Shown: positions 26,763 through 45,269 of the stretch, one piece after another
Layout of the letters: the number at the start of each line of letters is the position of its first letter
Position numbering within the stretch: position 1 is the first letter of the stretch
IMG/VR virus record: IMGVR_UViG_3300017991_002192
Location: 1 to 64,000 of that record
Reading direction: 5' to 3' (one strand)
Origin: a virus
Length of the DNA: 64,000 bases
Position numbers and translations under genes: made by a program
Notes under the pieces: model-generated
What the model was told of the DNA's origin: nothing
What the model saw: the letters and a program-made list of their open reading frames with translations, nothing else
Databases searched by the model: none

Positions 26763-29700
26763 CTACTCGGCGCCGTCAAGTGCAGCTTGAAGCCCCTGAA
26801 GCTTGGCGATCATCCGGCTGGCAACTACGGAGGCTGCCTTCGCATTGGAGAACAACCCTTGCTCCTGCCAGTTGCGAAGCTCGTTGTACTCCTTCTGGAG
26901 AAAGTTGCCCTTCATGTAAGGCTCATCGGGCTCCGTCTGCGGGGGCGTGTTGTCCTGCTTGCCGATCTCGGCAGGGTTGAACGGCTGCGACGGACCCTTG
27001 TTCGTGTTGTCGTCGGAACCTGGCGCTGTACCCTCTCCTGTGCCTTGCTGGTACGCCTCTTTCTCCTGGCCGGTCAGACGGCCAATCTCGTCGGAGAGCA
27101 GATCACAGCGATAGGCAAAGTCGAGCGCAATCTTCTGCGGAACCCCCAGGGATTCGTGATTGTGCTGGAAGAGATTGGCAATACGATCAAGGTCATCCGT
27201 GACCTTTTGGGCAGCCTCACGAGTCAGCGTTGACATTTGTTTTCCTCTCTTTGAGACGAAAAAGGGTTCGACAGCGCGGACAGAAGGCTGCCCCGCTGCT
27301 AATACGTGCCTACTATCAAGCGAAAAACGAGAATTTCGTCCCTCTTTCTTCCGTTCCGCACTTTCAAAGTCTCCTTCTGGAGTTTCAGGTTCGGATCGGA
27401 GGAAATTCGGGTTCTTCGTTTCCAAGAATCGTTGAATTGCGCGGTCTGCATGCGACTTTGAAGGCTTCCCAATTTCTTTGGTCACAAAGTCGTTGAGAGC
27501 CCGCAAATACTCCAACCGCATGTCCAAAACAGGGCTTTCCTCGGGAGAATCTGAATCTGCCAGTCGGACCCTTTCTCCATCTCGGAGAGTCCACGCTGGA
27601 AGTTTCAAACTACCGGAGGAAGTCCGAGTTTGCGCCATCGGAACATCCGGTTTTAGGTACTTCTCGATGAGTTTCTGCCACCAAGACTTTCCAGTAGCTT
27701 TTCGCGCCGTCTCGGCCACATACTTGGCGTCTCGGGCCTTCTTCTTCTCTCCGGCTTCTTCCAGTCGGGAGCGGATGAGGCGGTCCACGACGGTCATGTT
27801 GTCTACGGCCATGTCGATGATGGCCTGGCGCAAATGCCGCTTCTTCTCTTCTGGGAGCGCTGGCGTCTCCTCGGTGCCTACGAGGTACTCATCCATCCCC
27901 GGCATGGTGTCCTTGACGGACCGAGCCAGGTTGGCGTCATCGAGGCTCTGCATCGCAGAGTGGACCGACTTCTGGCCCTCCGCGCTGTAGAAATCCTCGA
28001 CGGGACCTAGTAACAAGTCAATTTTGCCCGCCTTCGCCATCGCTCGCGCAACCTCCGCGAATCCCTCATTCACTTCGCGGCCCGGGATCTGCGGCAGCTT
28101 GTCTTCCTCGCGTTCATCAACGAGCGCAGCCAGGGCGATGCCATCGAGGATGCGGTTTAGCTCCTTGGCTTCGGGGCTCTCGGGATCGACGTTCTCCAGC
28201 CGCTCTTGAATCTGGGAGGCAGCAGCCGTCCTCATCTGCTGGGGCAACTCCTGGTACTTCTCGAAAGCCTGGAGCCCTCGCTGACGGGTTCCAGCGTCGT
28301 CCAGAGCAACCTGGCCGACCTTCTGTCCGCCGATCGTGAACGGGTCTGCGATCAACGTCTGTGCCGCCATCGCGCGTGCTGTGGCGCGTCCGATGTCCTC
28401 GGGGCTGCCCTCGTAGGATGGTTTCTCCAGCGCCTCCATGGACTCCCTGAGAAGCAAGGGCGGAATCCGTTGTGCGCCGGTTGCCGGATCTGTCTCGATG
28501 CGGTTCTTGATGTCTCGGTACTCGGCCTGGACAGCCTCGACGTACTTCTCTTTCTCCTCTAGATCGAGCCCTTCCAGGGCCGGGCCCAGCTTGTCCATGA
28601 CATCCGAAGGGACTTCCTTCGTTCCGAAGATCCGTGCAGTGGACGACACCGCTGCCTTGTTCGCCTGATGCTTCGCCTTCTCACGTTGCTCATGTCGCTG
28701 GACGACGCGCGTGGCTTGGATGGCTTCCGCGATCTGGTCTCCCTTCGCGTGCGGATCGTCCATTTCATCGATGCGCTCCTCGAATTCCTCCAAGGACGCC
28801 TCTGCCGGAGCTAGAGCCGTTGCTGCATCGAGGTTCTCTTCCTGCTGCATGAGATGGAGATGGCGCTCGACGGCACCGATGACATCCTCGTACTTCTCCT
28901 CTTCCATCCCCTCCAGTTGCTTCTTGAGCACGTCCTTGACCTTCTTCGGGATGACGTACTTGGAGTCGCCCGACAGGTCGCGCACGACTTCTTGCATCTT
29001 GTCGATGGAGTCGGTGACCTTGCGCTTCTTACCGCGTTGCTTCTGCTTGTCCTTCTTGATCACCGCGTTCGCGTGAGCCTGCTCGACCACTTTCTGAGCT
29101 AGCTCATCGGCTTTGAGCGCTCCCGCGAAGTCATAGTCGGCCAAATCCTCTAGCGCCCGCTCGGCCTTCTGGACAGCCTTCGGCCCATCTATCGCGAGCG
29201 TCTTGGCTCGTGAACCGTAGCTCTGGAGAGCGCTGTTGAACGTTTTGATCTGCTCCGCGTCCATGTTCTCCAGCGCTGTCGTGATCTCCTTGCGCACGGC
29301 TGGAGGGAGCGAAGCACCTGCGATGTTGGATTTCAGAGAATCCGCAACGCCCTTCACGGTGTCTTTGACAATCTTCTTGCGTGCGACCGCTTCGGCGTCG
29401 GGCGATGGTTTCTTCCCCTTGTCTGGCGGAGGCTCATCCTTTATGTCTTTCCAGAGCTTCTCGCCTTCTTCCCCGACCTCAGCCTTGTCCTTCTTCGACT
29501 TCTCTTCCTCGGGCTTCTTTTCCTTGGGCTCGGGGTCCTCTAGGAATTCCTGCCAGGTCTTTTCCGTGTCCGGGTTCTTCTCTTTGTACTGGTCAAAGAG
29601 CTTCTTGGCGGCTTCCTCGCTCTTGGCCTTCTGCCAGGCTTGCAGGTAGAGAGCCGCCACGTGTTTGTAATTCAGGCTGCGATCCTTGTCCTCATCCGCC

Positions 29701-31334
29701 CGGTCTCCCTTCAGATCCTCATCCTCTTCCTCGATGCGATGTTTTCGAAGGTCGTGACGGGGCGGCTTCTTCTTGGGATCGGGACGGAGCAGTTTCCTGA
29801 TCTGCTCCTCTTCTTTCTCGGCCTTGCTCTTGGTCGCCTCGCGCCCAAACTCGGGCGTCCCGTAGGGAGGCAGCAAACCCTGCTCCTGCAAGTGAGGAGC
29901 CGCCTCGGGAATCGTCACATCCCAGCGTCCATCACCGCCCGGCGACAACACGGCTCCGCCGTGTTCACGAATCTCCCGGCTCATGCGCTCCCACAACGCA
30001 CTAAAGTCAGCCGGAACACCCTCGTTCCAAACCTCATCCGCAGCGTCACGCCAAACACTGCGTGAGACCACGCGATGAAGCATCTCGGGCGAAATCGCGT
30101 AAATGGTTCCGGTATCCGTGCCCACTTCGGCCGCTGTCTTGGCCGCAACGCGCCGGAACCCTTTGTGCCAACGCACTGTCCGCTTCCCCTGGACTGGCCG
30201 ATCCAGCTTCACATACGGGATGCCCTTCTTGTCCACCACAGTGCCGGTGAACACGTCCACCGTCATGAACGGCCCCACCTGATGCCATTCCACACGATCT
30301 CCGAACCGGACCCCGACTTCCTTCATGGCACGCTCGGCATCTCCGCGCAGACTCTTCCTCGCCTCACTCTTCGCCTTGTCGGACAACCGTTTGATCACCG
30401 GGTAGGCTTCCCGGTACTCGTCACTCGACAGAAACTTGTTCTTACCGCCGTACTCCCGGCTTTTCTTCTTCACCCACGCCATAGCCTCTTCGTAGTTGCG
30501 GAATTTCGGGGCGGCTGCCGTCTTGTCCAGATTCGTGAGAACGGTGCCGTCCTTCCTGTACTCGTCCTCCAAGTGAGGAACGAGATACTGGCTTCGCAAC
30601 GTGCTCGGCTCGTGCCCGACAATTTCGGCCGTCTCCTTCAACGCTCGATTAAATTCGTCTTTGAGAATGCGGTCACGCTCCGTGCGAGCCTTCGGCAGCT
30701 TCGATCCCTTGCTCCTGACCTTCTTTAGCTGCCCAAGCATCTCCTCATTGGCATGGAGCCCTCGCAGATCCTTGGCCGTGATGCCTTCGGGCAGATAGGC
30801 ATTGATGTCCTTGGCTGTGATGCTCGCGTCATCTGTCGTGAGGATCTGCTCGTCTGGCTTCTTGCCCTTCGTGATCTCCTTGAGCAGCTTGACCGCAGCC
30901 GCGTCGTTCACGATCTTCTTCTGCTTGACGCCAGACTTCCCGACGTAACTCAGCGTGGCCTTGTTGCCAGAGAACGTGACGTGCTTCTTGAGCCAGCCAG
31001 TAACACCGAAATGACCATCGTCGGCGCTGTCCTCGTTACCCGGACGCTCGTAAGTGTGATCAATGAGTGCGACCGCCAGAGCGGTCAGTCGGGTCTTGTC
31101 ATCCTTGCTCTTGAGATCGCTCTTGACCTTCTTGATCAGGTCGCTCCGGCGTTGTCGGAGCTTCTGGATGCGCTCGGCCTTGTCCTTGTCCCGCAACGCA
31201 ACCTGCCGTTCGCTGTACTCGTAGACGGTCGTATCTTCACCGTCTTGGTTCTTGACGACCTTCTTGCCCTTGTACTTGGTGTCCTGAGAGGCTCGGTACA
31301 AGGCCGCAACTTGAAGCACGGAATAGTCGCTCAC
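26763..31334 (-). CDS. giant virion-type protein with N-terminal topoisomerase IB
   Basis: The protein is 1523 aa. Residues ~45-260 are a type IB topoisomerase: catalytic Arg97 in HTYERPGNEDSA, Lys133 in LSYVGKSG, Arg191 in AKDLRGLHAN, His241 in VGHEPST and Tyr250 in RSQYLVP. The H-to-Y distance of 9 and R-to-Y distances match poxvirus topoisomerase. Residues ~340-400 form an SH3-like barrel. From ~480 on it is long charged coiled coil with recurring motifs (KHVAALYLQAW). The gene lies in the head operon, overlapping its neighbours, so the enzyme is probably packaged in the capsid. It could relax DNA during packaging or ejection. Confidence 0.85.
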   Translation of the reverse strand: MSDYSVLQVAALYRASQDTKYKGKKVVKNQDGEDTTVYEYSERQVALRDKDKAERIQKLRQRRSDLIKKVKSDLKSKDDKTRLTALAVALIDHTYERPGNEDSADDGHFGVTGWLKKHVTFSGNKATLSYVGKSGVKQKKIVNDAAAVKLLKEITKGKKPDEQILTTDDASITAKDINAYLPEGITAKDLRGLHANEEMLGQLKKVRSKGSKLPKARTERDRILKDEFNRALKETAEIVGHEPSTLRSQYLVPHLEDEYRKDGTVLTNLDKTAAAPKFRNYEEAMAWVKKKSREYGGKNKFLSSDEYREAYPVIKRLSDKAKSEARKSLRGDAERAMKEVGVRFGDRVEWHQVGPFMTVDVFTGTVVDKKGIPYVKLDRPVQGKRTVRWHKGFRRVAAKTAAEVGTDTGTIYAISPEMLHRVVSRSVWRDAADEVWNEGVPADFSALWERMSREIREHGGAVLSPGGDGRWDVTIPEAAPHLQEQGLLPPYGTPEFGREATKSKAEKEEEQIRKLLRPDPKKKPPRHDLRKHRIEEEDEDLKGDRADEDKDRSLNYKHVAALYLQAWQKAKSEEAAKKLFDQYKEKNPDTEKTWQEFLEDPEPKEKKPEEEKSKKDKAEVGEEGEKLWKDIKDEPPPDKGKKPSPDAEAVARKKIVKDTVKGVADSLKSNIAGASLPPAVRKEITTALENMDAEQIKTFNSALQSYGSRAKTLAIDGPKAVQKAERALEDLADYDFAGALKADELAQKVVEQAHANAVIKKDKQKQRGKKRKVTDSIDKMQEVVRDLSGDSKYVIPKKVKDVLKKQLEGMEEEKYEDVIGAVERHLHLMQQEENLDAATALAPAEASLEEFEERIDEMDDPHAKGDQIAEAIQATRVVQRHEQREKAKHQANKAAVSSTARIFGTKEVPSDVMDKLGPALEGLDLEEKEKYVEAVQAEYRDIKNRIETDPATGAQRIPPLLLRESMEALEKPSYEGSPEDIGRATARAMAAQTLIADPFTIGGQKVGQVALDDAGTRQRGLQAFEKYQELPQQMRTAAASQIQERLENVDPESPEAKELNRILDGIALAALVDEREEDKLPQIPGREVNEGFAEVARAMAKAGKIDLLLGPVEDFYSAEGQKSVHSAMQSLDDANLARSVKDTMPGMDEYLVGTEETPALPEEKKRHLRQAIIDMAVDNMTVVDRLIRSRLEEAGEKKKARDAKYVAETARKATGKSWWQKLIEKYLKPDVPMAQTRTSSGSLKLPAWTLRDGERVRLADSDSPEESPVLDMRLEYLRALNDFVTKEIGKPSKSHADRAIQRFLETKNPNFLRSEPETPEGDFESAERKKEGRNSRFSLDSRHVLAAGQPSVRAVEPFFVSKRGKQMSTLTREAAQKVTDDLDRIANLFQHNHESLGVPQKIALDFAYRCDLLSDEIGRLTGQEKEAYQQGTGEGTAPGSDDNTNKGPSQPFNPAEIGKQDNTPPQTEPDEPYMKGNFLQKEYNELRNWQEQGLFSNAKAASVVASRMIAKLQGLQAALDGAE

Positions 31335-34300
31335 GGCCGTTCCTCCTTCAGAATCTTCACAATCTCATCGTCCGTGAGCCCCTTATCCAACTCCTCCCCG
31401 ATGATCCTGATCAACTGCTCAATCATCTTATCCATCGCGGATTCGGACTTGGACTTCTCTTCCGAAGCCATCACCACCTTACTCACGGCATCCCAAATCT
31501 GACCCAGACCAGGAAGAGCACTCGTGCTGACTGGAAGCACCGCCGAAATGCCTCCTGCCTGAGCAACACTTTCGGCTGCTTCGTAGGCCAGGAATCCCTC
31601 ATCAGCAAACTGGTTCATGGCCTTGATGCCGATGTGCAGGCTCAGGCTATGCCCGAACGCTTTAGCGCCGGCCAAGGCCACTCGCCCAATCGCTCCGCCT
31701 GCCGGCCTTCCGGTGGTCATGGCTAGAACCGTCCCTGCCACATACACACCGACTCCATAAAGAGTCTTTGCCTCTGCCTTCGTGGGAGCGCGTCGTTCTT
31801 TCGCCAGCGTGGCGAGGATGCGCGGAGTCTCCTTGAAGATTGCCTTCAACTCGGCTTTGCCGGACTGGATGACCGCGGTCTTGATCTTTCCAGGGGCTTC
31901 CTTGATCGTCTTGGCGGCTGCTTTGGTCACGTCATCGCGATAACTCTTGTCCACGATGAATTTCTGGACCTTCTCGGGAGCTTCGCGAACCGATTTGGCG
32001 ACCGACTTGCTGAGCCCCTTGATGCTCGTGAACACGTGGTCGAGCTTCTGCCGGACCGTTTTCTTGGGCTTTGGAGCCTTCCCCTTCTCGGGCTGGACAA
32101 TCTCGTGTCGCTTCGGATCGGCTTTGGGGTGCTTGCGCTTGTACTCTTTCCACGCCTCCGGCGTGAACCGCTTGGCGAGGTACATCCGGGCGACCTTTGC
32201 CGGCATCCCAGGAGGGTCTTCACCCTTGATCACGACCGTGTCGAAGATCGACTTGTGGGGCTCCGGCAGATTGCCGAGGAGGTGCATGGCAAGCGCCTCA
32301 CAGAAGTGCTCCTCCCTATTCGTACTGGCGTAAGGGGTCGGAAACTGCCCCCGTTTGGCTCGGCGCTCCAAAAACTTCCAGTACTCCCGCTTCTTGATCT
32401 TGGCGTCACGTCCAGTTGGCTTGTGCAAGACGTGGATGAAGCGATCATCGATATCGGTGACTATCGGAGGACCCCCGCGCCTCATGCCCTGCATGGGGAT
32501 CGGAAGAGGCTCACCAATCTCAGGTAGATCTGTGGGTCTAGACCGCTCGTACTGCCCAAGCCCGTACTTGATCATCGAGTGGTGATTCGCCCATTTCGTC
32601 TTGACATCGCGAGACATGATCTTGTCCCAATAGCGATGCCCCAACTCATGCAGGAAATTGTGAAGCTCGCCCTCTCCCACCTTGATATGCGGTCGTAGGT
32701 AGAGCTTGTCGTCATTCGGGTTGTACCAGGCCAACGTTCGCGGCTGACCGCCCGTCTCCCGCACGGTGTTGTGGACCTTGAACGGCCCGACCGTAAACAA
32801 GTCCTCTGCTCCCCCGATGCCATTCTCAACCTTGTCCGGCCACCCGGCTGCGTCTACCAAGTAGCGATACTTGCCCTTGTTCTTCTCAAGCCACGCGACG
32901 ATGTCTCGTGGAGGCCGCTTGGCCGCAGAGAAGGGCCGTGCCGACAACTCAAACTTCTTCGCCTGGCCTCGCGGAATCGATTTGGTTTGAAGCAGGTACT
33001 CGACCCAGAGCTTGGCAGCCCGAAGCATGTGCGGCCAAATGACCCGGCCGCTAGACTTGAGACGCATGAGCAACGACCGAATGTCGTACTCGTCCAGACC
33101 TTTGAACCTGTTGGCCAGGAAATCGGCCCGCGATACCCCGCCCTTTTGCAGATCCTCATCGACGCTACGGTTGAGAAGCTCCCATTTGCCCATCAGGTCC
33201 CCGAGCAGCTTGCTCATGGGAGCGCGGGCAACCAGATGCCGAATCGCTACCCGCTCTGCCATGCGGGCGGTCTTGTGTCGCGCTGCTACCCTCTTGGAAG
33301 ACGGCAATCTCGTTGGCGGCAAGACGAGCTTGTTCTGCACACGCTTCCACAACTCACGCACTGCCCGTTGCCACCGCTTGCGGTCGTATTCCCACAGAGT
33401 CGCGAAGAACGGATGCGTGGCAATGGGGTCGCCCTTCTTGAGAACCCGGCCTTTCGACTTGATCGGCCGCGGGTTGCCTACAAACTGGTCAAACTCCTTC
33501 TTCTTGGGTCGGGGGTCCTTCTCACCACCAACCACCCGCATGGTGCGAACCTCATCCAAGAACGTCTCCTCGCTCTGACCGAGCCACGTGAAAAACTCCT
33601 GCGGCAGTAGGTAGTACTGTAGATTCTTGGGAACGTCCTCATAGAGCGCAAAGCTGCCAACTTCGTACTCCTTTGGCGCACCTCGGCTCAGCGACTTGCG
33701 GATGTGTTCTTGCTCTTTCGGGCTCAGCTTCTCCCAGCTCTTGCCGCGCTCCAGAATCTTCCTCTCCATCAACTCCGCTTCAAACTGGAAGAACATCTGC
33801 TGGACCATGTGCCGAAGCTCATGCTTGATGATCGTGTCCATGGTCCGAGCAGCTTCGCGGTACTTGAAGATCTGGTCAGGCGCTCTACCGTGCAGCAGAA
33901 TCCTCAACTTCTTGGTGTTGCCGTTCCACGTGCCGTGGACAGCGCGTTCTCGCGGAGCGGGCTGGCCTGTAAACTCCACCCCGACGCGAATCTTGGGTAT
34001 CTCCTGCTGCAACTGCTCGATCGGGTAGTTTTTCGGCATCCCCCCCAGGTCCGTCACGAAGTCACGCTTGGACTTTTTCCGACCACGGCCCTTCGCACCA
34101 TCGCGGATGGCTTCCTTCAGAATCTTGCTCGCTTTGTCGATGCCTTCTTGTCGTACCTCGATACGATCCTTGAGCCGCTCAATCTCTCTTGGAGTCGTTG
34201 CCTCCTTGAGATCAGCCTTGAATTCCTTGATATCCTCCTTGTGCCCCTTGATTTCCACACGGGCTCTCGTTGCAGCCCATGTGGCATATAGCGACTTCAC

Positions 34301-34378
34301 CCAATCGAGGATCTCCTGTCGCATCTTTGGCGGGTAGGCCAAGATGCCGGCGACACGCATGGGAGTCGTCACTTCCAC
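31331..34378 (-). CDS. giant virion-type protein with two HELxH metallopeptidase domains
   Basis: The protein is 1015 aa. A coiled-coil N-terminus (40-95) leads to a first zinc-peptidase helix DTIIKHELRHMVQQ (186-190). The RVAARHK/RVAIRHLVARA linker lies at 363-386. A second peptidase domain has FLHELGHRYWDK (577-581), with REEHFCEALAMHL (688-700) as the likely third zinc ligand. A shared module FTPEAWKEYKRKHPKAD (738-754) follows. The C-terminal 230 residues are Lys/Ala-rich, then hydrophobic and Gly-rich (LYGVGVYVAGTVLAMTTGRP), membrane-active looking. Possibly a capsid-borne protein that acts on host or virion proteins at entry. Confidence 0.75.
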   Translation of the reverse strand: MEVTTPMRVAGILAYPPKMRQEILDWVKSLYATWAATRARVEIKGHKEDIKEFKADLKEATTPREIERLKDRIEVRQEGIDKASKILKEAIRDGAKGRGRKKSKRDFVTDLGGMPKNYPIEQLQQEIPKIRVGVEFTGQPAPRERAVHGTWNGNTKKLRILLHGRAPDQIFKYREAARTMDTIIKHELRHMVQQMFFQFEAELMERKILERGKSWEKLSPKEQEHIRKSLSRGAPKEYEVGSFALYEDVPKNLQYYLLPQEFFTWLGQSEETFLDEVRTMRVVGGEKDPRPKKKEFDQFVGNPRPIKSKGRVLKKGDPIATHPFFATLWEYDRKRWQRAVRELWKRVQNKLVLPPTRLPSSKRVAARHKTARMAERVAIRHLVARAPMSKLLGDLMGKWELLNRSVDEDLQKGGVSRADFLANRFKGLDEYDIRSLLMRLKSSGRVIWPHMLRAAKLWVEYLLQTKSIPRGQAKKFELSARPFSAAKRPPRDIVAWLEKNKGKYRYLVDAAGWPDKVENGIGGAEDLFTVGPFKVHNTVRETGGQPRTLAWYNPNDDKLYLRPHIKVGEGELHNFLHELGHRYWDKIMSRDVKTKWANHHSMIKYGLGQYERSRPTDLPEIGEPLPIPMQGMRRGGPPIVTDIDDRFIHVLHKPTGRDAKIKKREYWKFLERRAKRGQFPTPYASTNREEHFCEALAMHLLGNLPEPHKSIFDTVVIKGEDPPGMPAKVARMYLAKRFTPEAWKEYKRKHPKADPKRHEIVQPEKGKAPKPKKTVRQKLDHVFTSIKGLSKSVAKSVREAPEKVQKFIVDKSYRDDVTKAAAKTIKEAPGKIKTAVIQSGKAELKAIFKETPRILATLAKERRAPTKAEAKTLYGVGVYVAGTVLAMTTGRPAGGAIGRVALAGAKAFGHSLSLHIGIKAMNQFADEGFLAYEAAESVAQAGGISAVLPVSTSALPGLGQIWDAVSKVVMASEEKSKSESAMDKMIEQLIRIIGEELDKGLTDDEIVKILKEERP

Positions 34379-37300
34379 TTCTTGACCACCAGATCCGTGA
34401 GCTTTCGGGGATCGTCAGCCAGCTTCGGGTCAGCCAGAATTAGCTCGCGAGCTAACGGTTTGATGCGGCTTCGCTCTGGCGGCGGCAGCATCAACTCGTC
34501 AATGACTCTCTTGTTGTCCACCGGAGGCTTGATCAGCCTGTCTGCAAACTTGCTCGCCTCATCCTCTGGCATCCTCACCGTGGTCTCGCGAAGCCACTGC
34601 CGTTGTTTGGGCGTGAGGAAGTGGAGCGGTGTGTTCGCTGGGAGACCGAGATCCATGAGATCGAGGAGAAGCTGCACCCGTCGGTCGCGCTTGAGTTGGT
34701 TCGCCATGAACGTGGCGAACGGTCGCTTCTCCTGAATCATCTCGCTCACCACGTCGAGCAGCCCAAGCTCCTTCATCTGACGTAGTGACTTGCGGGCGGT
34801 AGGCTCCTTGAGAATGTCTCCGACCAAGATGTTGCCGATGGCCTCCCAGGGCATCTGCTTCATCTTCCGTGCGTTGCGCTTGATGGAAGCCGCTACGTCT
34901 GGCGGGATCTTGAAGCCGTACTTCCCCGTAAACTTAATGACCCTCAACATGCGCGTGGGGTCATCTGAGAACGTCTTGTTGGGGTCGGCCGGGCATTTGA
35001 CCGAACGCTCTTTCAGGTCTTTCAGACCACACCCCGTAAGATCGATGATCTCGGCCTTGTCTGGCCCCTTCGCCAAGTCCAGCAGGCGCCACATCAATGT
35101 ATTCATTGTAAAGTCGCGCCTTCGTATATCCTGCTCGATGGTCGCCGGTTGTACCTCCGAAGGCTTGTAGCCTTTCCCCTCACCCTTGGCGTAGGACTCG
35201 CTACGGGCGTTGGCGATCTCTATGACCTCACCCTTCATGTTGTCGCCATCTAGCTCCCAATCTCCGCTCACAGTGAGGATGGCGACCCCGTACTGATTCG
35301 TCTTGAGGTTTGTGGCTGCTGGGATCCGACGCGCTAACTCCTTGGCAAACCACTCGGAGTCGCGCCCGGCCGACATGGAGTCGATCACGAGATCCAGATC
35401 CTTGATCGGCCGCTCGATGACGAAGTTTCGTACCGCGCCACCCACCACGTAGACATGCTTCGCTACGCCGAGGCTCCTCGCAGTCTCGGACAGAAACTTC
35501 ATCAACGCGATCGAGCGTCGGTGCGCACTCAGAGCCAAGTGCTGGGAAGCCACCCGACCAATGAAGATCTCCGGCTCCTGGTCTCCTTCCAAAGTATCTT
35601 CACCACGGAAAGTCTCATCATGGATGACCGAGACCCGAGCTTGGAGCCTCTCTGCCAGGTCTTCTGAACGAAGCGTGGCGTGCTCGCCGAACCCCTTGGA
35701 GTCCTCACAGACCCCCAGCAACTCCTTGCGGTATGCCTCCAGGTGCGCGGGACCTTTCCCTTCTTTCCACAGCCGCGCCAACGCATGCCACAGATCGTCG
35801 CTCCAGAACATGATCTCGTTGGGTTTCTTCCCCAACCACTCGGCAAATTCGATGAGCCACTGGTTCAACGGCTCCGACTTGCTTCCGTAGTTGAAGCTCC
35901 CGTCCTCCAGAATCGGACCCATCACGAAATTCCATGCCTCTTCTAGCTCTGTCCGGGTCGCCGGTCGGCCCCAGGCAAGCAGATACTCTCGGTCCACATC
36001 CCGCATGGCGTCACCCAGGATGTCCGCGGGACGATCCCCGCCATAGAGCGCCCCTTCGTTCGGGTCCGTGCCTGGGATGGCGTTCATCAAGCCACCCTTG
36101 TCGACTGGCGGAGGGTTGATGCCCGGCTTGCCCGGCTGAATCGCCCACCATCCAGCCGTCTTGAGCCTGTACTGGAAAGCCACGCGCATTACGGGCGGAG
36201 CGATCTTCAGGAACGACGCCACGTCCTCGTTCCACTCCGTGCTATCCACAACGGGTCCGGCTTTGGCAACTCCCAACAACCGCGCGGCTTCGGCTACGAG
36301 ATCCTCCGCCGTCACTTCCTCATCCTCCTCTTCGGCCCGGTAGAGCACGTCGGGATTCAGCGCCAGCCAGCTATCGCTTGGCTTGGCTGTCTTCAAAGAG
36401 GGATCTGCCCTAGCGTCTGGTCCTTCCAAGGGAACCAAGCTGTCCTGGTCCTCCCAGTCCTCAATGCCTTCGTCATCTCGCACCAGAACATCTGGATTGA
36501 GGATGTCGTATCGCTCCAACTTCAAGACAACGCCATCCTTCCAAGATCCGTCTGTATAAGGGCCGATCTTCACGCGCTGGCCTGGATAGAAACACTCTCC
36601 ATCACCAGCGCACTTCTTCTCTCCCGCCTTTCCGTCGATCTCCCATTGCCTACAGACCTCTCCCTTCCCGTCCCCTTTGGTGGACCACTCCTTGAAGTGC
36701 GGCTTGCAAAACCACGCATGGCCGATGCCCTCAGCCCAGATACACTCGATCTCTGGAGCCTTCTTGCAGCCCTTGTGCATGCACTGGCTCACGGAATGGC
36801 GTGCGATCTTGATCTGGGGCAGAATCGTCTTGAGCCACAACCGAACCTCCGGCAGTACGGTGCGTGGTCCGTAACCGACGAGCATGCCCAGAGCCTCGCA
36901 AAACGCTTCCTCCTTATTCTTGTGGGCGTATCCCGTGATCGGCTTGCCGTGGACCCGAAACTTGGCCGTGCCGCCTTCTGCGAGGTACTTCTTCAAGTCA
37001 TCCATGCCCAAGACGTAATCGAATACGCGCTTGGTCTCCGGCATGTGCCACAGCCCTTGGATCTGAAGATAAAGTAACGGGTTCTCTTTCTTGATCCGTT
37101 CGTTATCGTAGAGAAACTTGTCGCCTCCGTACCTACGAGCAACTTCGTTGAGATCAAGCGTTCCGTAGTTTCCTGAAATCGCCCGAGACCAGAAGTCTTG
37201 AGCGGTTTTGCTCAAGTACGTCTTGTAGACGTGGTGCCCCATCTCATGCGCAATGGTCTTAGCCAGCGCGCCTGGATTTCGCTCCGCCGAAGTAGGATTG

Positions 37301-38901
37301 ATGGAGATGTGGTCGTGCTCGTAGACCCCCGCTTCATCGAGCCTCGCACGGAAATCGACAACCAACGGAAGCTGACCGCGGAGCAGAAGCGGAAGCGCTT
37401 GTCTGGCACGCTGTTTGTAGCGTTTCAGACCTACCTTAAATCGTTCCAAAAAGTCGGCGTACATCTCAGAGGAGTCGGTCGGAAAACCTCTGATTGTTAC
37501 CGGAAGACCCTCAATGCTTACCCGCTCCTCTTCAGGGATATCCACGCCCAGCGGTGTTTCAGAGATTCGCGAGTACCACTCCGCAAAGTCCTTGAGCACA
37601 CGCCATGCTTTGCGCGCTGAGCGACGCACACGCCCTTCCCACTTTGGAAGCTCGCGCTGTAGCTGCGCAAACAGCCCCTCTCTAGACGCCCTCGGATCAT
37701 ACTTGACCACAAATTCGTAGCGCTCTAGAGGAACACGAAAGTCGAGATGCAAATCCCAGACCTCGTGCCCGATCTTCTTGTCCCAATAGTCTGCATCACC
37801 TTGGGTAATTCGCCTCTGAAATCTCAGGTCTTTGATTGCCTTGCGAAGACGATCAAGAACGAAAAGCTCAAACCGATCACTCCAAGTCTGGACCGCCTCT
37901 TTCCACTTCAACGCCTGTTTATAGTCCTTCACGACCTTGGCGTTCTTCATCAGCATCAAGAAGTCCTTGCGAAACTTCTCGATCTGCCGTAGGTCAAGTG
38001 GCTGAACGCGAGCCAAGTACTGCCTGGCAACACGTTTGGCAATTTCCCCATGGACCTCGACTCCGAGCGGACGACCTTGTTCCTTCTGTGTGTCGCTCCA
38101 GACACGCCCGGTGAAGTACCCGCTGTCCTCGAATAGCGACCGCACTGGCCCGTTGAGAAACGTCTCCTCATCTCTGTTGTCCGGCCAGAGCACAAATCGA
38201 TGGTTGTCCGCTGCATCCCAACCCGACTCCGCGACAAACGCTGACTTCTGCCAGTGGGAGAACGTGCCATCAAAGTCAAGCTGCGCCTTCGTGGGGATGT
38301 CCCGAGGACTCCTTTTCTGAGCACCCAGCTTGCTCTGGAGTGCGGACCCAAACTTGACTTTGTGGACCTTGGGCAAGCCCCACACTTCCATTTCATCAAA
38401 CTCCCACGTACCGGTCGGCACGTCCCCCTTGTACGGCTTGTCAAACCCAGGCGTGTAATCCAACGTGACGTGCGGCATGTAGACGGGAAACGAGTCCTTG
38501 ACCTCGAAACCCGCTTCCTCCAAGCGATTCTTCACCCGGTCCCGTAACTCAGCCATCGGCTGACCGAATTTCACGGCCACGTGAGGAACGATCCGCCCCT
38601 TGTCGGTGTGCTGGAAGTAGTTGAGATCGCCCAGCGTGGCCTTGACCCTGGGCCAGCCCTCGCCCTGGAACGCATCGCTCAAAACCCTCAGAAAGTCAGC
38701 TTCCCGGTCCTCCGAAACGTCACCTACGAACAGGAAAGTGGTGTGCGGTGGCGAACGGTCCTCAGTGCCGAGTGACGGAAACTGCCTGGCGAGAGCGGCG
38801 GGCAGCGGAATGAACAATCCCACGCTGTCCCGGTAGCCAGTTTTCTTGCCATTCGCCTGCCGTTGCAGGTAACGTTTGGCGATTTTGGCGGCTGAGAACA
38901 T
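34369..38901 (-). CDS. giant fusion: 2H phosphoesterase, metallopeptidase, CCA-adding-type enzyme
   Basis: The protein is 1510 aa. Residues ~25-185 are a 2H phosphoesterase with HTT (53-55) and HVT (144-146) motifs. The linker KRVARQYLARV lies at 289-299. A zinc-peptidase helix TIAHEMGHHVYK (549-560) pairs with KEEAFCEALGML (663-674). A Cys/His zinc cluster spans 707-740. Residues ~1130-1430 are a class II nucleotidyltransferase of the CCA-adding/poly(A) polymerase family: YVVGGAVRNF, IKDLDLVID, RRDFTMNTL, DDPTRMLRVIKF. The order suggests RNA-end repair functions carried on a structural protein. A hairpin masks its ribosome-binding site. Confidence 0.85.
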   Translation of the reverse strand: MFSAAKIAKRYLQRQANGKKTGYRDSVGLFIPLPAALARQFPSLGTEDRSPPHTTFLFVGDVSEDREADFLRVLSDAFQGEGWPRVKATLGDLNYFQHTDKGRIVPHVAVKFGQPMAELRDRVKNRLEEAGFEVKDSFPVYMPHVTLDYTPGFDKPYKGDVPTGTWEFDEMEVWGLPKVHKVKFGSALQSKLGAQKRSPRDIPTKAQLDFDGTFSHWQKSAFVAESGWDAADNHRFVLWPDNRDEETFLNGPVRSLFEDSGYFTGRVWSDTQKEQGRPLGVEVHGEIAKRVARQYLARVQPLDLRQIEKFRKDFLMLMKNAKVVKDYKQALKWKEAVQTWSDRFELFVLDRLRKAIKDLRFQRRITQGDADYWDKKIGHEVWDLHLDFRVPLERYEFVVKYDPRASREGLFAQLQRELPKWEGRVRRSARKAWRVLKDFAEWYSRISETPLGVDIPEEERVSIEGLPVTIRGFPTDSSEMYADFLERFKVGLKRYKQRARQALPLLLRGQLPLVVDFRARLDEAGVYEHDHISINPTSAERNPGALAKTIAHEMGHHVYKTYLSKTAQDFWSRAISGNYGTLDLNEVARRYGGDKFLYDNERIKKENPLLYLQIQGLWHMPETKRVFDYVLGMDDLKKYLAEGGTAKFRVHGKPITGYAHKNKEEAFCEALGMLVGYGPRTVLPEVRLWLKTILPQIKIARHSVSQCMHKGCKKAPEIECIWAEGIGHAWFCKPHFKEWSTKGDGKGEVCRQWEIDGKAGEKKCAGDGECFYPGQRVKIGPYTDGSWKDGVVLKLERYDILNPDVLVRDDEGIEDWEDQDSLVPLEGPDARADPSLKTAKPSDSWLALNPDVLYRAEEEDEEVTAEDLVAEAARLLGVAKAGPVVDSTEWNEDVASFLKIAPPVMRVAFQYRLKTAGWWAIQPGKPGINPPPVDKGGLMNAIPGTDPNEGALYGGDRPADILGDAMRDVDREYLLAWGRPATRTELEEAWNFVMGPILEDGSFNYGSKSEPLNQWLIEFAEWLGKKPNEIMFWSDDLWHALARLWKEGKGPAHLEAYRKELLGVCEDSKGFGEHATLRSEDLAERLQARVSVIHDETFRGEDTLEGDQEPEIFIGRVASQHLALSAHRRSIALMKFLSETARSLGVAKHVYVVGGAVRNFVIERPIKDLDLVIDSMSAGRDSEWFAKELARRIPAATNLKTNQYGVAILTVSGDWELDGDNMKGEVIEIANARSESYAKGEGKGYKPSEVQPATIEQDIRRRDFTMNTLMWRLLDLAKGPDKAEIIDLTGCGLKDLKERSVKCPADPNKTFSDDPTRMLRVIKFTGKYGFKIPPDVAASIKRNARKMKQMPWEAIGNILVGDILKEPTARKSLRQMKELGLLDVVSEMIQEKRPFATFMANQLKRDRRVQLLLDLMDLGLPANTPLHFLTPKQRQWLRETTVRMPEDEASKFADRLIKPPVDNKRVIDELMLPPPERSRIKPLARELILADPKLADDPRKLTDLVVKKWK

Positions 38902-38939: not shown

Positions 38940-41900
38940 CTAGAACCGTCCTCCGCCGCCTTCCTCCTTCGGCTCGTACTTGAGCCCAAGCCGCTTGGCG
39001 ATCATCTCCGTGAAGTCGGTATCGTCAGCCAGCTTGGTTCCCACGCTGGAGTAGGCACCGCGGAGAACCTCGTTGAACGTCGCGTCTTGGAAGGTCGCGA
39101 AGTCGCGCTCCAACTCCTCCGCCGCCGACTCTGGATCGATGTTGAGAAGGTCCAGAATGGTCGAAACCGGGATCGAGCCTTTCGAGTAGAGGTTGTAGAG
39201 TGCGTCGTAGGTGTCCTGATTGTCCCGAAGCGCAAGCCGAGTAAAGCTCAGCTTCGGATAGACGACCTGATCCCTGCCATTGACGGTCTCGATGAAGCCC
39301 ATCCTCGCGCACATGGGCTTGAAGCAATACTCCTCGATGAGATCTTGAACGATCTCACGCATGAGCATGTAGCGGACGTTGATGACCTCCAGATTGATGC
39401 GGTCGCCACTGTAGCTCGACTCGCCAGACAGCAACGACTCCGTGACCCCGAGCCCCGCGTAAAGCTCCCGGTTGATTAGCTCGTACTCTCCCGAAAGCTC
39501 CAAGAGACGACCCTGCGGTGTCATCTCTTCCCACGTCACCTGGAAGTTGGTGACGATGCTGTAGTCGGGATCTTGCAGCGCCAGATCGATCTGATCTCGG
39601 AGGGCCTCGGTCTGCGCTTGGTTCATATTCTCAGCGTAGACCAGGCGAATTGGAGTCATATGACGCGATGCGATCGATGTCTGGGCTTGCCGACAGTTAT
39701 GCAAAAGCAATCCACCGCCTGTATGCGACTCATCTTCTTCTACATCAAACGAATACACCGTACCCGTGTATGGAATTCTCTCCACTCCAGTGATTCTTCG
39801 AGTCAGCCTATTATGATCAAACCGCGAACGCCAAGTATACTTTCGCTCAACCCACTCTGTTTCTTCTCCCTTAACTGAACCCCTACTCCACTCCCTAACA
39901 CTAGAATAATCTGTGCTTCTCAGCGAATAATATGTTGCCTCCGGGTACGTGTATGTCTTCTCCCGCATCCCGGATTTTGTTTTCCAGCGGCGCGTTATCG
40001 AAGTTGCAGACCTCGTGCATTGCCCAACATACGACACAAGCCCCACACGATTGCACAAGAGATGTAACTGATCAATTAATGTAGCGTTTGCCAACTCAAC
40101 AGAGATCTCGACAGTTTTATCGTTAGAAGGCAATCCAACCTTCAACGATCCGTCCGTATCAAGTAGGCCACACAGCAACGCCTTGATTTGTTCATCTGCT
40201 AGCTCAAACACCCAAAAAGGCAACCGCTTAGTATAGCAGTCAACGCCCATCTCCTCGGCTACCCATCGTGCAAACAATTCATCCTCAACACGAACATAAT
40301 GAATCGCACTCTCCGTGTCGTATTCCCCCATTACAGGGGTAAAATGCAGATTCTCATCGCTGATCAAATCTCCTGCAATGCGGGCGATCCGATCTCGTAC
40401 TTTTAACGAAATGGCGTCGCCGCCGAACGACCACTCAACATAGCAGGTATTGAGAAATCTACAATCGCTGTGCCATATTGCCCCATCACCCAAAAAAGCA
40501 CCAAGCAAATAACACACGTCTTCCGTCAGAGGAACTTCGCAAAGACCCGAAGCCAACGTATGATACTGAGTCTCATCAGGAACCTCGGCGTCTGGGGGCG
40601 CGGGATGCCACGTAGTCTTGCGCGGACCTGCCCCTACTGGAGTTGTATCCATCCGCAGACCCAAACGCTTTCTTAGTGTAAACGCGTAGTTCCTTAAGCG
40701 AACAGGAAATGCCAGTAACCTCAGAAAGAGCCTTGTAAGAAACCTGAGTAGGTCTCTCCAAATCTCTGAGCCATTCTAGCAATTTCCTCATTCCTTGTAC
40801 GGCCCCGACACGATTGACATGATCCTGCGGAAAACTAAATGTTACATATAGAGTGTTGTCCTCTTCGCTTACCTCACAAACACTCAAGTGACGGTCCACA
40901 ATACAAGTCTCCCCCCCGCAAAGACTTCTTCGTTGGACCGCAAAATGACGATTGCCCCACCACTTTCTAAGATCAAACGTCCTCCGCCTATCCCCGTTAT
41001 CAATCGAAGGCTCGCAAAGCTGCTGCCCCGGCCTCAACTCACCTGCTTCGATCCATCGCTCAACACCATCCTCCACAACCAACACTCGATGATCCCTCGT
41101 CACACAAAGCGGACGCCGGATTCCCTCCACCGCCAGAGCAACAATATCTTCTTCAATTTCCCGAGACCCGGTTATAGCCTTGCGAAATCTCCCCTTGTGC
41201 GTAAGTAAGAATTCCCCGTCTTGAATCGTCTCTACTCGGACCTGCTGCGGGATACCCTTTCTCCTCACCCAAACCAAGCAGCCCGGAAGCAGACACTTGT
41301 CCTTATAGACGAGCGTGCGAATGCAGCGCTCCAGACGAGAGTGCCCGCGGGGCTCGTACTGGCTGCGCTTGTTCGCCATGTAGTAGCAGAACGACCCTGC
41401 CTTCGGATTCGTGTTGAGCGGGATGTTCTTGCCATCCGTAACCGCACTCACGACATCCGCAGGCATCGACTCCACAATCTCTTTGGCTCGTTCGTCGCCG
41501 TTGCCAGCCATCTCGATGATGGCCTTGGTCTTGGAGTCAGGGATTAGCTCGATGAGTTTCTCATCCGTAAAGGGAAAGCCCTCAAGATGAATCTGCTCCG
41601 GCGGAAGCACGCGGATCGCCGTCCATCCTTCGTAGTTTGCCTGCATCCAGTCGGCAGCGCGCTCGTCCGCGTTGTCGCGCTCCTCGGCTTGCTCGATCAG
41701 CTCCGCACCCTCCTCATCCGGCAAGACATACTTCCGCTCGACACGGATATCCTCGGGCATCTCCGGGTTGCGGTCCTCAAAGAAGATGAAGACCTCACCA
41801 AGGAGGTTGTACTCGTGAACGATCTCGATCAGCCGATGCAACAACCCGATGTTCTTGCACCAACGTTTGATGAAGTCCAATGACTGATCGCCAAGCTCCT

Positions 41901-42405
41901 TGCTCTTGGCCTCGGGGCGACCGAGACGAATCTTGGACAGCGGTAGCTCCGTGTGTAGATCGATGGCCTGACCAACAAACGGATCAGCCCGGTAGAAGAA
42001 CCGGAAGTAGTTTCGCTGCTCGTCTAGGCTCTGCGGTAGCTCAAGGAAATCGGTGGATAGCTCGGGCGAATAGAAGTTGCCACCACTTCCGAGCGTGGAT
42101 GATCCCGCCGACCCAACACCCGAACCGCCGCCAGAAACACCTATGCCTCCTACGCCGCCGGCTCCTCCGTAGCCGCTGAAAGCCGACCCACCACACGTAG
42201 CGATCTTCGACCTCATCGAGCCACGAATGAGAGGCTGCGGCTTACCTACCGATAGCTCCTCTCGCCGGTCTGTCCGCGTGGGTACTCGGCCCACGAGTTG
42301 AGCATCTCCGTTGGTCGGAACATCCGCTGATCCCGCGATGACCCGTCGCTTGGGGGTCACCCGCAGGCATGTCCGAGCGCGAACGCGTTTCCTTGGAGAC
42401 GCCAC
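38940..42405 (-). CDS. portal protein, interrupted by an intein and one frameshift
   Basis: N-extein (370 aa, 42405-41296) and C-extein (251 aa, ending 38940) join to a 621-aa portal. The Gly-rich N-terminus leads to FLELPQSLDEQRNYFRFFYR, FVGQAIDLHTELPLSKIRLG and YNLLGEVFIFF. Across the junction, RTLVYKDK is followed by CRQAQTSIASRHMTPIRLVY. Later come VTWEEMTPQGRLLELSGEYE and GVTESLLSGESSYSG, typical of SPP1/T4-type portals. The gene directly follows terminase genes. The two halves are in different frames; the switch lies inside the intein near 40594-40598, so exteins themselves are intact. Confidence 0.85.
39696..41295 (-). mobile_element. portal intein with LAGLIDADG domain, frameshifted
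   Basis: Starts CLLPGCLVWVRRKG and ends GGGLLLHN before +1 Cys. Block B VTRDHRVLVVED and the LAGLIDADG motifs CYLLGAFLGDGAIW and IKALLCGLLDTDGSL are present. The element is 1600 bases, one more than a multiple of three. The first frame runs to a stop at 40576; the second is open from about 40664 down. A C5 run at 40594-40598 (coding strand) is the likely slip site. The intein is visibly richer in A/T than the surrounding gene, a sign of recent transfer. Confidence 0.85.
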
Positions 42406-43097: not shown

Positions 43098-45269
43098 TCA
43101 CCCCTTTAGCCTTCCTCCGCGAACCCCGAGCACTGGACGCACATAGTGACCCTGGCGCTGGCGAACAGTCCGATGCTCATGGCTACCACTCTGCATCGCC
43201 CTCATTCGCGCCTTGACAACCGCACCTTCTGAGATTCGGTGTCGATTGGGGCCAACGCCCTGAGCTATCTGCCCTGAGATATACTTGATGTTTCCAAGTC
43301 TCTGCGAAGCCAGCCACACCATGCGCACCAGAGCATCCGAGCGGTCGTCATGCTTACCAACGAGATTGGGAGCCTTGACCTCCACGATGTACTTGGACTT
43401 GATCGTGGCCTGTAGCTCCAGCAACTCTTGGAGATACGAGATAGGCCCTTCTTCCTCCTTCGGATCGTCGCCCTCCCCCATCTCGTCCTGCGCCGCCAGT
43501 GCCTCCCGGTACGCGTCCTCGCTCATCCCCGTCTTGTCCTTATCGGGCATGTCATCGTAGAGAACGAGCCGCGACTCTCCGCCGGGAAGCCTCTCGTACA
43601 TCAGATCCTTGAAGTTTTTGAAGATCTGGCTCGACAGAGGACCCGTCAGGTGTTGCGTCTTGATCTGGGCAAGTCCGCGCTTCGCAAGAGCTTGCTCAAA
43701 GATGATCCCGGCCCACTGATCGAACATCCCCTCCTCGATCAGAAACTTCTTCGACAAGTCCCGAATCCAGTCAGCCACTTCCTCGTAGTCGAGCCGCTCA
43801 TGGTTCTCGTAGGGCCCTGGCGTCCCGGCACGGATCTCATCGATGTAGTCGAGGATGACCTTGGGGCCTTCGATGTGACCGATGGCTACGGCCGTGCCGT
43901 CTTGAGCCAACGCGAAGTCGATCCCCATGAAATGAGGAACACGAGGGAGCCCGCGTGTTCGCTGGCGAAGCGTCGGGTCCACGCATTCGAGCAGATCCTT
44001 GCGGACCTCGATCCAACCCAGCGTCCGGCTGGAGAATTCGCCGCCAAACTCCGTGATGAATTGGATAGGATCTTTGGCGTACTCTTTCTCGTACTCTCCC
44101 GGCGGAATGGTCGGGTTGATCTCCCACGTCGGTGCCTGAATCGCCAGCATGTTGGCCGACCCAGAGCCGCCCTTCATCGCCATCTGGAACAACTCGAAAA
44201 ACTTGCCCTGCCGACCAAGCGGAGATGAGATCAGAATCATGCGCCCATCGGATGTTTCCGTGAGCGCCTTGGTTCGGTTGTCGGGATCCTTCGGAGTAAA
44301 CGTCGAGAGCGACGGAGAGATCGCCTTGTAGACCTCCTCTGCCGACGACTGCCCTGCATCTGTGAAGTGAGCGATCTCGTCTAGGATGGCGACGATGTTA
44401 CCGGGACCACGCAGCCCCTTCGCGATGCACGAACGGAAAGTGACGTTGATGCTCGCCTGCTGAGCATTGCCATCAAACCGACCGAAGTCTTGGATGTCCC
44501 TCGCCGTCTGAAACTTCGCAAAGGTCTGGGTCGAGTTGGCCCGGTGAGCCGCGAAGTAGTCCGTGTCGTTGAAGATCGCCTTGACCTTGCCGTAGAGAAT
44601 GCTCGCCTGATCACGATCAGTAGCAACAGAGATAAGCTGAATCGTCTCGCCGTTTGGGAGCCCGTAGAAAAGCTGCGGATCCCCCTTGGCCAGCAGCTTG
44701 TACGTCTCGTAAGCCGCAATGATGGCCGACAACTCAGTCTTTCCTGACCGTCGTCCGACACTCAGGATCATCTCCCGGCGTTCTTCGCCGGGAATGACCT
44801 CGCGAATGTTCGCACGCTGGTTGTCGTACAGATAGTGCAGGTACTCGCGCTCAGTCAGCCACTTCGCTGAGGCTGGCGTCTTGCGCCAAGGAGCATCGTC
44901 ATCATAGATGACGACGGTCTTGCGCATGATGGTCCGAATGAGTTGCGCTCGATCTGCCTGACCACTGACCTTGGGATCTTCCTCCAGCGCCAGAGCCAGG
45001 AGATCCACGGTCGAGTAAGACGCCAGTAGCTCCTCTGAAAAGCCAGCCGGGCTGTCATCGAGAGCCAGCCCGTAGTGGGCCTTGAGGATGACTCTTTGTG
45101 CTGGGAAAAGCCTGCGGCCTGCCCACTCCTCGATGAAGGTGATGACATCCACCACCTCTGTCTGCCCGGAAGCCGCGTTGTTGTCCCAGAAGGAGCCGAC
45201 CGTTCGGGCTATCTCCGCTAGGCTCGACCGGGTCACTGCTTCATCCTCATCCGAGCCTCGTTCCACCAA
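43098..45269 (-). CDS. terL: large terminase subunit (packaging ATPase-nuclease)
   Basis: The 723-aa protein has the TerL arrangement. Walker A is LSVGRRSGKTELSAI. Walker B plus catalytic Glu is IVAILDEIAHF, and coupling motif ILISSPLGRQG follows. The RNase H-like nuclease has Asp in FMGIDFALAQDGTAVAIG, a second acidic cluster, and Asp in GKHDDRSDALVRM. It cuts concatemeric DNA and pumps it into the prohead through the portal. The start overlaps the small-terminase candidate by 37 bases. All catalytic residues appear intact. Confidence 0.95.
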   Translation of the reverse strand: MVERGSDEDEAVTRSSLAEIARTVGSFWDNNAASGQTEVVDVITFIEEWAGRRLFPAQRVILKAHYGLALDDSPAGFSEELLASYSTVDLLALALEEDPKVSGQADRAQLIRTIMRKTVVIYDDDAPWRKTPASAKWLTEREYLHYLYDNQRANIREVIPGEERREMILSVGRRSGKTELSAIIAAYETYKLLAKGDPQLFYGLPNGETIQLISVATDRDQASILYGKVKAIFNDTDYFAAHRANSTQTFAKFQTARDIQDFGRFDGNAQQASINVTFRSCIAKGLRGPGNIVAILDEIAHFTDAGQSSAEEVYKAISPSLSTFTPKDPDNRTKALTETSDGRMILISSPLGRQGKFFELFQMAMKGGSGSANMLAIQAPTWEINPTIPPGEYEKEYAKDPIQFITEFGGEFSSRTLGWIEVRKDLLECVDPTLRQRTRGLPRVPHFMGIDFALAQDGTAVAIGHIEGPKVILDYIDEIRAGTPGPYENHERLDYEEVADWIRDLSKKFLIEEGMFDQWAGIIFEQALAKRGLAQIKTQHLTGPLSSQIFKNFKDLMYERLPGGESRLVLYDDMPDKDKTGMSEDAYREALAAQDEMGEGDDPKEEEGPISYLQELLELQATIKSKYIVEVKAPNLVGKHDDRSDALVRMVWLASQRLGNIKYISGQIAQGVGPNRHRISEGAVVKARMRAMQSGSHEHRTVRQRQGHYVRPVLGVRGGRLKG

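Follow-up and report, generated by a model that had tools for sequence, protein, structure and literature searches.

A tagged multidomain protein in the head module of a huge tailed phage and its possible part in RNA 3'-end healing

Why should a phage carry, among the genes that build its head, a protein whose domains are predicted to act on the ends of RNA? The question is raised by a stretch of viral DNA of 64,000 nucleotides (nt) (IMG/VR record IMGVR_UViG_3300017991_002192, positions 1 to 64,000; hereafter the window), in which a single open reading frame (ORF) with an ATG start, located at 34369..38901 on the minus strand, encodes a protein of 1510 amino acids (aa). The initial annotation of this ORF had claimed one polypeptide joining a 2H phosphoesterase, a metallopeptidase and a nucleotidyltransferase (NTase) of the CCA-adding type, and this is borne out by Pfam and PHROG matches, conserved motifs, structural models and identical copies of the protein in two IMG/VR contigs of 497,194 and 372,162 bases. 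We interpret it as a polyvalent protein of the head module of a huge tailed phage, which would deliver a tagged RNA 3'-end kit at infection and keep tRNAs chargeable, and we put the probability of this interpretation at slightly less than one half (about 0.48).

The identical copies and the conserved domains rule out a chance ORF. From its N terminus the chain is composed of a short peptide tag, the 2H domain, a second tag, a zincin-like metallopeptidase, a Cys/His cluster (residues ~707-770, 36592..36783; homologous segments occur at locus L203 and in contig G013), an unassigned region (residues 870-1112, 35566..36294; homologues at 6 of 80 related loci, copies of this phage counted) and the NTase, all coordinates referring to the minus strand of the window. 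The cluster, the unassigned region and three tag-like segments (residues 3-15 and 287-299, with a weak third at 1113-1125) were absent from the initial annotation, which had named the loss of catalytic residues on alignment as a finding that would speak against it. Such a loss is ruled out by motif conservation in the alignments of the 2H, zincin and NTase domains, where the residues are intact.

The 2H domain (residues ~25-188, 38338..38829) possesses the paired motifs H53-x-T55 and H144-x-T146. The Pfam model LigT_PEase reaches 17.2 bits on the 1510-aa protein alone, under its cut-off of 23.3, and the 2H domains of relatives exceed the cut-off of the model 2_5_RNA_ligase2. H53, T55, H144 and T146 are invariant among 23 aligned 2H sequences, and paired H-x-T motifs are found in all 22 unique ones. 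Its AlphaFold model (predicted local distance difference test, pLDDT, 88.5) matches the Deinococcus CPDase and the E. coli LigT, while viral 2',5'-phosphodiesterases and cyclic GMP-AMP (cGAMP) phosphodiesterases match as well, at lower ranks. By motifs and modelled fold the domain is a member of the LigT/CPDase group, and the opening of 2',3'-cyclic phosphates is its predicted activity. Membership in the Acb1 family, directed against the cyclic oligonucleotide-based antiphage signalling system (CBASS), was rejected, as the Acb1 profile has no match to the 1510-aa protein at E<=1 in the Pfam search.

The zincin-like domain (residues ~300-700, 36802..38004) shares 39% identity with a separate 454-aa protein of the uncultured phage genome LR745208. 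The HEMGH motif (residues 552-556, 37234..37248) and the downstream EEAFCEA (residues 664-670) are both kept in this relative. No Pfam model matches the zincin region at E<=1, and the match to a PHROG metallo-protease is weak (E=0.049).

The C-terminal domain (residues ~1128-1505, 34387..35520) is assigned to the class II CCA-type NTases by Pfam, PHROG, motifs and model. Pfam PolyA_pol scores 70.3 bits (cut-off 23) over residues 1150-1301, the RNA-binding partner domain remains below its cut-off (19.1 versus 22 bits), and a PHROG tRNA nucleotidyltransferase matches the protein at 106.9 bits. The full class II motif set claimed by the initial annotation is confirmed by alignments and motif positions: GG..R at residues 1154-1158, D.D at 1168/1170, RR[DE] at 1261-1263 and DxxR at 1314/1317, their columns being invariant or nearly so among 19 aligned NTase sequences. 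GG..R and D.D occur in all 24 sequences that cover this part, out of 32 unique pieces. The AlphaFold model (pLDDT 91.6) has as its top Foldseek matches the CCA-adding enzymes 6qy6, 6qxn and 5hc9, with template modelling (TM) scores of ~0.5, and a profile search returns 9ns2 as the top match together with chains named poly(A) polymerase. The modelled fold is thus closest to CCA-adding enzymes, and CCA specificity is predicted.

Are these domains joined in this protein only? A search of IMG/VR for loci with the type IB topoisomerase that is encoded close by gave 125 confirmed loci, of which 80 were kept and 60 were non-redundant by a k-mer rule. Counting domains within 10 kb of the topoisomerase, and duplicates included, the 80 loci comprise 29 with 2H, 33 with NTase, 22 with the commonest class of zincin and 12 with HAD. 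The non-redundant set comprises the window's phage, LR745208 (485 kb) and contig G003 (199 kb; locus L236), and 35 non-redundant loci have portal, topoisomerase and either protease or a 177-aa protein (p177) in view. In 31 of these 35 the topoisomerase follows the portal, and in 27 of the 31, the window's phage included, 2H, NTase and/or HAD-SAK domains are located between portal and protease, fused in varied orders; by module, the 31 loci hold 2H (18), NTase (15), zincin (9) and HAD (6). 2H and NTase are neighbours in eight chains, in both orders, and in other phages they are fused with no intervening peptidase; in contigs G004 and G013 the fusion is interrupted by an insert, probably an intein.

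The same modules also occur as separate proteins. In LR745208 and G003 the gap between portal and topoisomerase is short and without giant proteins, and the domains are found elsewhere as stand-alone modules: G003 has an NTase of 404 aa and a zincin of 364 aa, while LR745208 has two zincins (454 and 359 aa) and a 2H protein of 497 aa that bears three tags (49.9 bits to 2_5_RNA_ligase2). In contig G005 a separate 2H protein of 212 aa adjoins the topoisomerase. A HAD-SAK phosphatase stands alone in the 497-kb contig, where its score of 25.2 bits narrowly misses the cut-off of 25.6, and in LR745208 (84.7 bits) and G003 it forms one chain with the topoisomerase. At locus L203 a single chain of 919 aa combines a Zn cluster, an NTase, HAD-SAK and 2H, with PolyA_pol at 63.2, HAD_SAK_1 ('Swiss Army Knife RNA repair') at 42.5 and 2_5_RNA_ligase2 at 39.7 bits, all in excess of their cut-offs, and L204 has the same architecture. 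To judge from these sequences, the 1510-aa protein is one form of a cassette that shuffles RNA 3'-end enzymes, zincins and the type IB topoisomerase, and 2H, HAD-SAK and NTase are a predicted RNA 3'-end healing set. Because the catalytic residues are intact, the gene lies in the head module, 2H-NTase fusions exist and HAD-SAK joins both enzymes in one chain, the enzymes are best read as an RNA 3'-end kit.

Packaging of this kit is suggested by the short basic tag, whose core is [RK]-[VI]-A-x-R-[YFH] and which is found at protein termini and module boundaries; alignments of the separate NTase and zincin with their homologues in the 1510-aa protein start at this motif. A 13-residue matrix was trained on LR745208 and G003 only, and the 497-kb contig (542 ORFs) was held out, a score of 12 or more counting there as a site. 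The N-terminal tag of the 1510-aa protein (residues 3-15, 38857..38895) scores 26.3, the best among the 542 ORFs (none in 10 shuffles). The internal tag (residues 287-299, 38005..38043), placed at the start of the homology to the separate zincin of LR745208, ranks ninth with 16.0 (0.4 expected by chance per proteome), and a tag of the neighbouring 1015-aa protein ranks fourth. A degenerate tag ahead of the NTase (residues 1113-1125, 35527..35565) scores 6.0, with ~30 expected by chance, and aligns with the tag at the N terminus of the stand-alone G003 NTase. In total the held-out contig has 13 sites versus a shuffled mean of 1.85 (maximum 4 in 20 shuffles). The three genomes together, the two training genomes included, have 48 versus 4.05, and 23 of the 48 are near a terminus, where 18.5% of positions are found (p=3e-6).

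The contrast between cargo and shell is pronounced in the 57 loci that remain when three training or window loci are removed from the 60 non-redundant ones. Here, 137 cargo proteins contain 88 tag sites versus 1.8 in shuffled sequences (68 of the 137 with at least one), 44 p177 proteins contain 4 versus 0.1, and 137 terminase, portal, protease and capsid proteins contain none versus 0.8; one short peptide is thus common to unrelated cargo and absent from shell proteins. Proteins that contain catalytic domains account for 71 sites: 55 fall clear of the domains (p=0.003), and the remaining 16 reach into the beginning of the topoisomerase domain. Of all 88 sites, a constant position ahead of the topoisomerase accounts for 19 and a constant helix in its C-terminal family for 13; without these, 56 are left. 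The tag directly precedes 2H (a single case, the 1510-aa protein), zincin, NTase, topoisomerase, ADP-ribosyltransferase (ART) and Zn modules, and directly follows 2H, NTase, zincin, topoisomerase and HAD modules; this placement rules out a helix that belongs to a single domain. A cleavage consensus of the herpes type at the end of the tag and a charge pairing between scaffold and tag were also considered, but the residue frequencies are too loose to support either. Further genomes are enriched as well (G006 12 versus 0.4, G007 8 versus 1.0, G017 5 versus 0.4). Moreover, the motif TQPLxTRRDY of the capsid N-arm is present, as such or slightly varied, in three non-capsid proteins (LR745208 474341-474964, minus strand; G003 49667-51745; G007 207548-209638), of which that of G007 has a matrix-scored tag and that of LR745208 a tag by a looser pattern only. 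The tag looks like a signal for head targeting or cleavage. Another tagged protein, of 283 aa (LR745208 19465-20316, minus strand), looks by eye like an ADP-ribosyltransferase, and its homologue at locus L234 is part of one chain with 2H and zincins.

How could such a kit work? From the position of the gene, the tag and the capsid N-arm motif in non-capsid proteins we infer packaging and subsequent separation by cleavage. The tag most likely would address the modules to the interior of the assembling head, and it may also be the place where the head protease or the zincin separates them; the proteolytic release proposed in the initial annotation is suggested by its occurrence at module boundaries. 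The enzymes would then enter the host together with the phage DNA. There, the 2H domain would open 2',3'-cyclic phosphate ends, the phosphatase, where present, would remove the phosphate, and the NTase would rebuild the CCA, so that host and phage tRNAs may stay chargeable during an attack by host nucleases. With 2H, phosphatase and CCA enzyme acting together, ends damaged beyond the discriminator base would be restored with no need for a ligase. More tentatively, we extend this to the entire huge-phage lineage, in which one tag would serve as address, and perhaps as cut site, for loading interchangeable modules into the head. These modules would pass freely between stand-alone proteins and giant fusions, and the commonest cargo would be the RNA 3'-end healing set, which would arrive with the infecting phage and either protect tRNA ends or rebuild them.

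Several results weigh against a packaged kit of this kind, and some of them lend support to other explanations. In the cassette, the joint presence of 2H and NTase per locus is not enriched (Fisher p=0.47, 31 loci), HAD occurs in 0 of 15 loci with NTase versus 6 of 16 without (p=0.018), and the 919-aa chain sits in a locus without a portal in view. The lack of linkage between 2H and NTase would suit a different scenario, in which the 2H domain destroys cyclic or 2'-5' alarm nucleotides of host defence, the NTase tails other RNAs, and their co-occurrence shows no more than that effectors have accumulated, as they do in other polyvalent proteins. RNase or signal-degrading roles of 2H domains have indeed been proposed in the account of polyvalent proteins by Iyer et al. 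2017 (PMC5512222), and one relative shows a weak Acb1 match (E=0.0031, under the cut-off). However, the best folds for the 2H model are those of CPDase and LigT, with the signal-degrading phosphodiesterases ranking lower, the best NTase matches are CCA enzymes, and the eight neighbour pairs and the NTase-HAD-2H chain count against it as well; we regard the scenario as highly doubtful.

As for the tag, the copy before the NTase in the 1510-aa protein is not significant by itself, reversed proteins of the 497-kb contig still yield 5 sites, and the looser pattern is not enriched in this contig (8 versus 6.45), for which reason the trained matrix was applied to it as a held-out genome. Tag enrichment is also slight in Rctr197k and G008 (3 versus 0.8 each). 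Rctr197k has a related zincin, and its few tags would be compatible with proteins that are not packaged at all but act in the infected cell, the tag directing them to an intracellular compartment or to a site of replication or assembly. The dispersal of tagged proteins across the genome, beyond the head module, points in the same direction, and a topoisomerase and RNA enzymes could well serve replication and translation. Nevertheless, the regular position of topoisomerase and cargo after the portal and the capsid N-arm motif in three non-capsid proteins are at odds with this explanation, which we consider quite improbable.

Which RNA would be the substrate? For the packaged kit, tRNA repair is the leading reading, and maturation of the phage's own tRNAs is its main rival. 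The genomes G001, LR745208 and G003 contain 46, 36 and 37 tRNA genes, and CCA is encoded in only 11/46, 12/36 and 4/37 of them by acceptor-stem fitting, or in 11/45, 9/30 and 4/36 by T-loop fitting. C74 is present in 44/45, 27/30 and 35/36 of the placed genes, positions 75-76 are mostly not CA, and T75 is found in 30 of the 36 placed genes of G003, as if the first C of CCA alone were retained. Such genes would be expected if the NTase completed CCA-less phage tRNAs and the 2H domain trimmed or opened precursor ends. Yet in the small number of genomes compared, having an NTase does not go along with lacking CCA, because LR745208 has no NTase by PF01743 search, while G006 and G007 encode NTases and have, by T-loop fitting, CCA in 35/44 and 0/44 tRNA genes, respectively (G008 1/13, G017 0/6, Rctr197k 0/41). 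Maturation as the sole purpose of the NTase was rejected for this lack of correlation, and a late head gene would be an odd site for an enzyme that serves early tRNAs, unless it is delivered by the virion. Overall, maturation appears to us rather unlikely.

The repair kit proposed in the initial annotation for tRNAs cut by defence nucleases is partly supported: an RNA 3'-end activity is the most plausible one for these enzymes, and the repair of anticodon cuts is disfavoured. Anticodon repair would need a ligase, and a search of the 497-kb contig that was limited to PF09414 and RtcB ligases, Rnl1-type ones not included, found neither, so that damage to the 3' CCA end fits better; among 14 records, PF09414 occurs in 4 and RtcB in 2. 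Precedents for the end chemistry may be seen, by analogy, in CdiA-CT toxins: as reported in PMC9071432, CdiA-CT(EC869) cleaves tRNAs between positions 71 and 72, leaving a 2',3'-cyclic phosphate, and CdiA-CT(NC101) cleaves between 72 and 73. These cuts also tell against the kit, since they remove the discriminator base as well, and CCA addition alone would be insufficient after them.

The closest known kind of protein is that of the polyvalent proteins, by analogy with which injection of the 1510-aa protein from the virion is predicted. In the description by Iyer et al. 2017 (PMC5512222), these are large, multidomain proteins encoded near virion genes, with zincins, some with 2H domains, and predicted to be injected. 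Similarly, the 1510-aa gene is located near virion genes, between portal and head protease, unites disparate activities (2H, zincin, NTase) in one polypeptide and possesses a zincin with HExxH and a downstream Glu, a common though not obligatory hub. None of its four Pfam matches (E<=1) is a large-polyvalent-associated domain, Pfam's coverage of these domains not having been checked. According to the same description, no 2H domain of a polyvalent protein had been observed together with an RNA ligase. In contrast to the present protein, the Pol-beta NTases described there are minimal and mostly ArdC-N-linked, whereas this NTase is CCA-type, and the short tag sets it apart from the polyvalent proteins as described (PMC5512222). 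A CCA-adding enzyme, 2H and Swiss-army-knife HAD phosphatases are listed among the RNA repair functions of jumbo phages in PMC7824862, and a study of huge phages counts the CCA-adding enzyme among translation proteins (PMC7162821); unlike the jumbo-phage repair enzymes as described in the former, those considered here form 2H-NTase and NTase-HAD-2H fusions and have a head-operon location. Class II CCA-adding and LigT/CPDase enzymes are alike in motifs and folds, but here they are embedded in a phage polyprotein. Neither the tag nor the shuffling RNA-end cassette was found described in the open-licence PubMed Central papers that were searched.

In T4, a short capsid targeting sequence is common to several unrelated proteins internal to the head, beside the head protease. 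The tag studied here resembles it as a short peptide on unrelated, putative head cargo, but its motif is a different one, and it occurs at either end of a protein as well as at module boundaries within the chain. If our reading is true, phages can import a tRNA-end repair kit with the genome, ahead of any phage gene expression, which would have a direct bearing on how phages beat tRNA-cleaving defences; the tag would, in addition, be a sequence handle for predicting what uncultured huge phages carry inside their heads, and it might become a tool to load proteins into very large capsids.

The surrounding head module is encoded on the minus strand in the order terminase, portal, 1510-aa protein, 1015-aa protein, 1523-aa topoisomerase, p177, protease, scaffold-like protein, 226-aa protein and capsid, and this gene order is common to LR745208 and G003. 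The large terminase subunit (43098..45269; PHROG 92.3 bits) is followed by the portal gene with a probable intein insert (38940..42405), recognised by portal PHROG matches, split homology to the LR745208 portal and a weak LAGLIDADG match; its frame is broken into two ORFs in the window and forms one intact ORF of 1155 aa in the 497-kb contig. The 1015-aa protein (31331..34378) carries HELRH (residues 186-190, the domain being named from the motif alone) and HELGH (577-581), with two tags between them at residues 360-385. The 1523-aa protein (26763..31334) has a type IB topoisomerase core (Pfam Topoisom_I, 85.4 bits). The head maturation protease with intein insertions lies at 22104..26219, the acidic protein at 20726..22237 is a probable scaffold by composition and position, and the major capsid protein (18964..19836) matches PHROG at 164.6 bits.

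In a phage-collection search with the capsid protein, LR745208 was the sole match above 60% identity, and the nearest cultured relatives were Tunturi_5 (48.5%) and Bacillus phage G (38.1%). Across the 80 best of the 533 IMG/VR stretches that match it, the lineage's capsid protein is 88-100% identical, and for this reason the system may be a common one. The cultured Tunturiibacter phage Tunturi_5 has an annotated tRNA nucleotidyltransferase (233135-234583) and a tRNA splicing ligase (243762-244943), separate and distant from the head genes. Within the window, an intein signature was seen by eye in the clamp loader (58163-59362), and a 559-aa protein (47274-48953) includes a Ferritin/Dps-like domain that in LR745208 and G003 is a separate small protein. 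Finally, positions 129-460 harbour a CRISPR-type array on the phage, with five direct repeats of 39 nt at a spacing of 71-75 nt.

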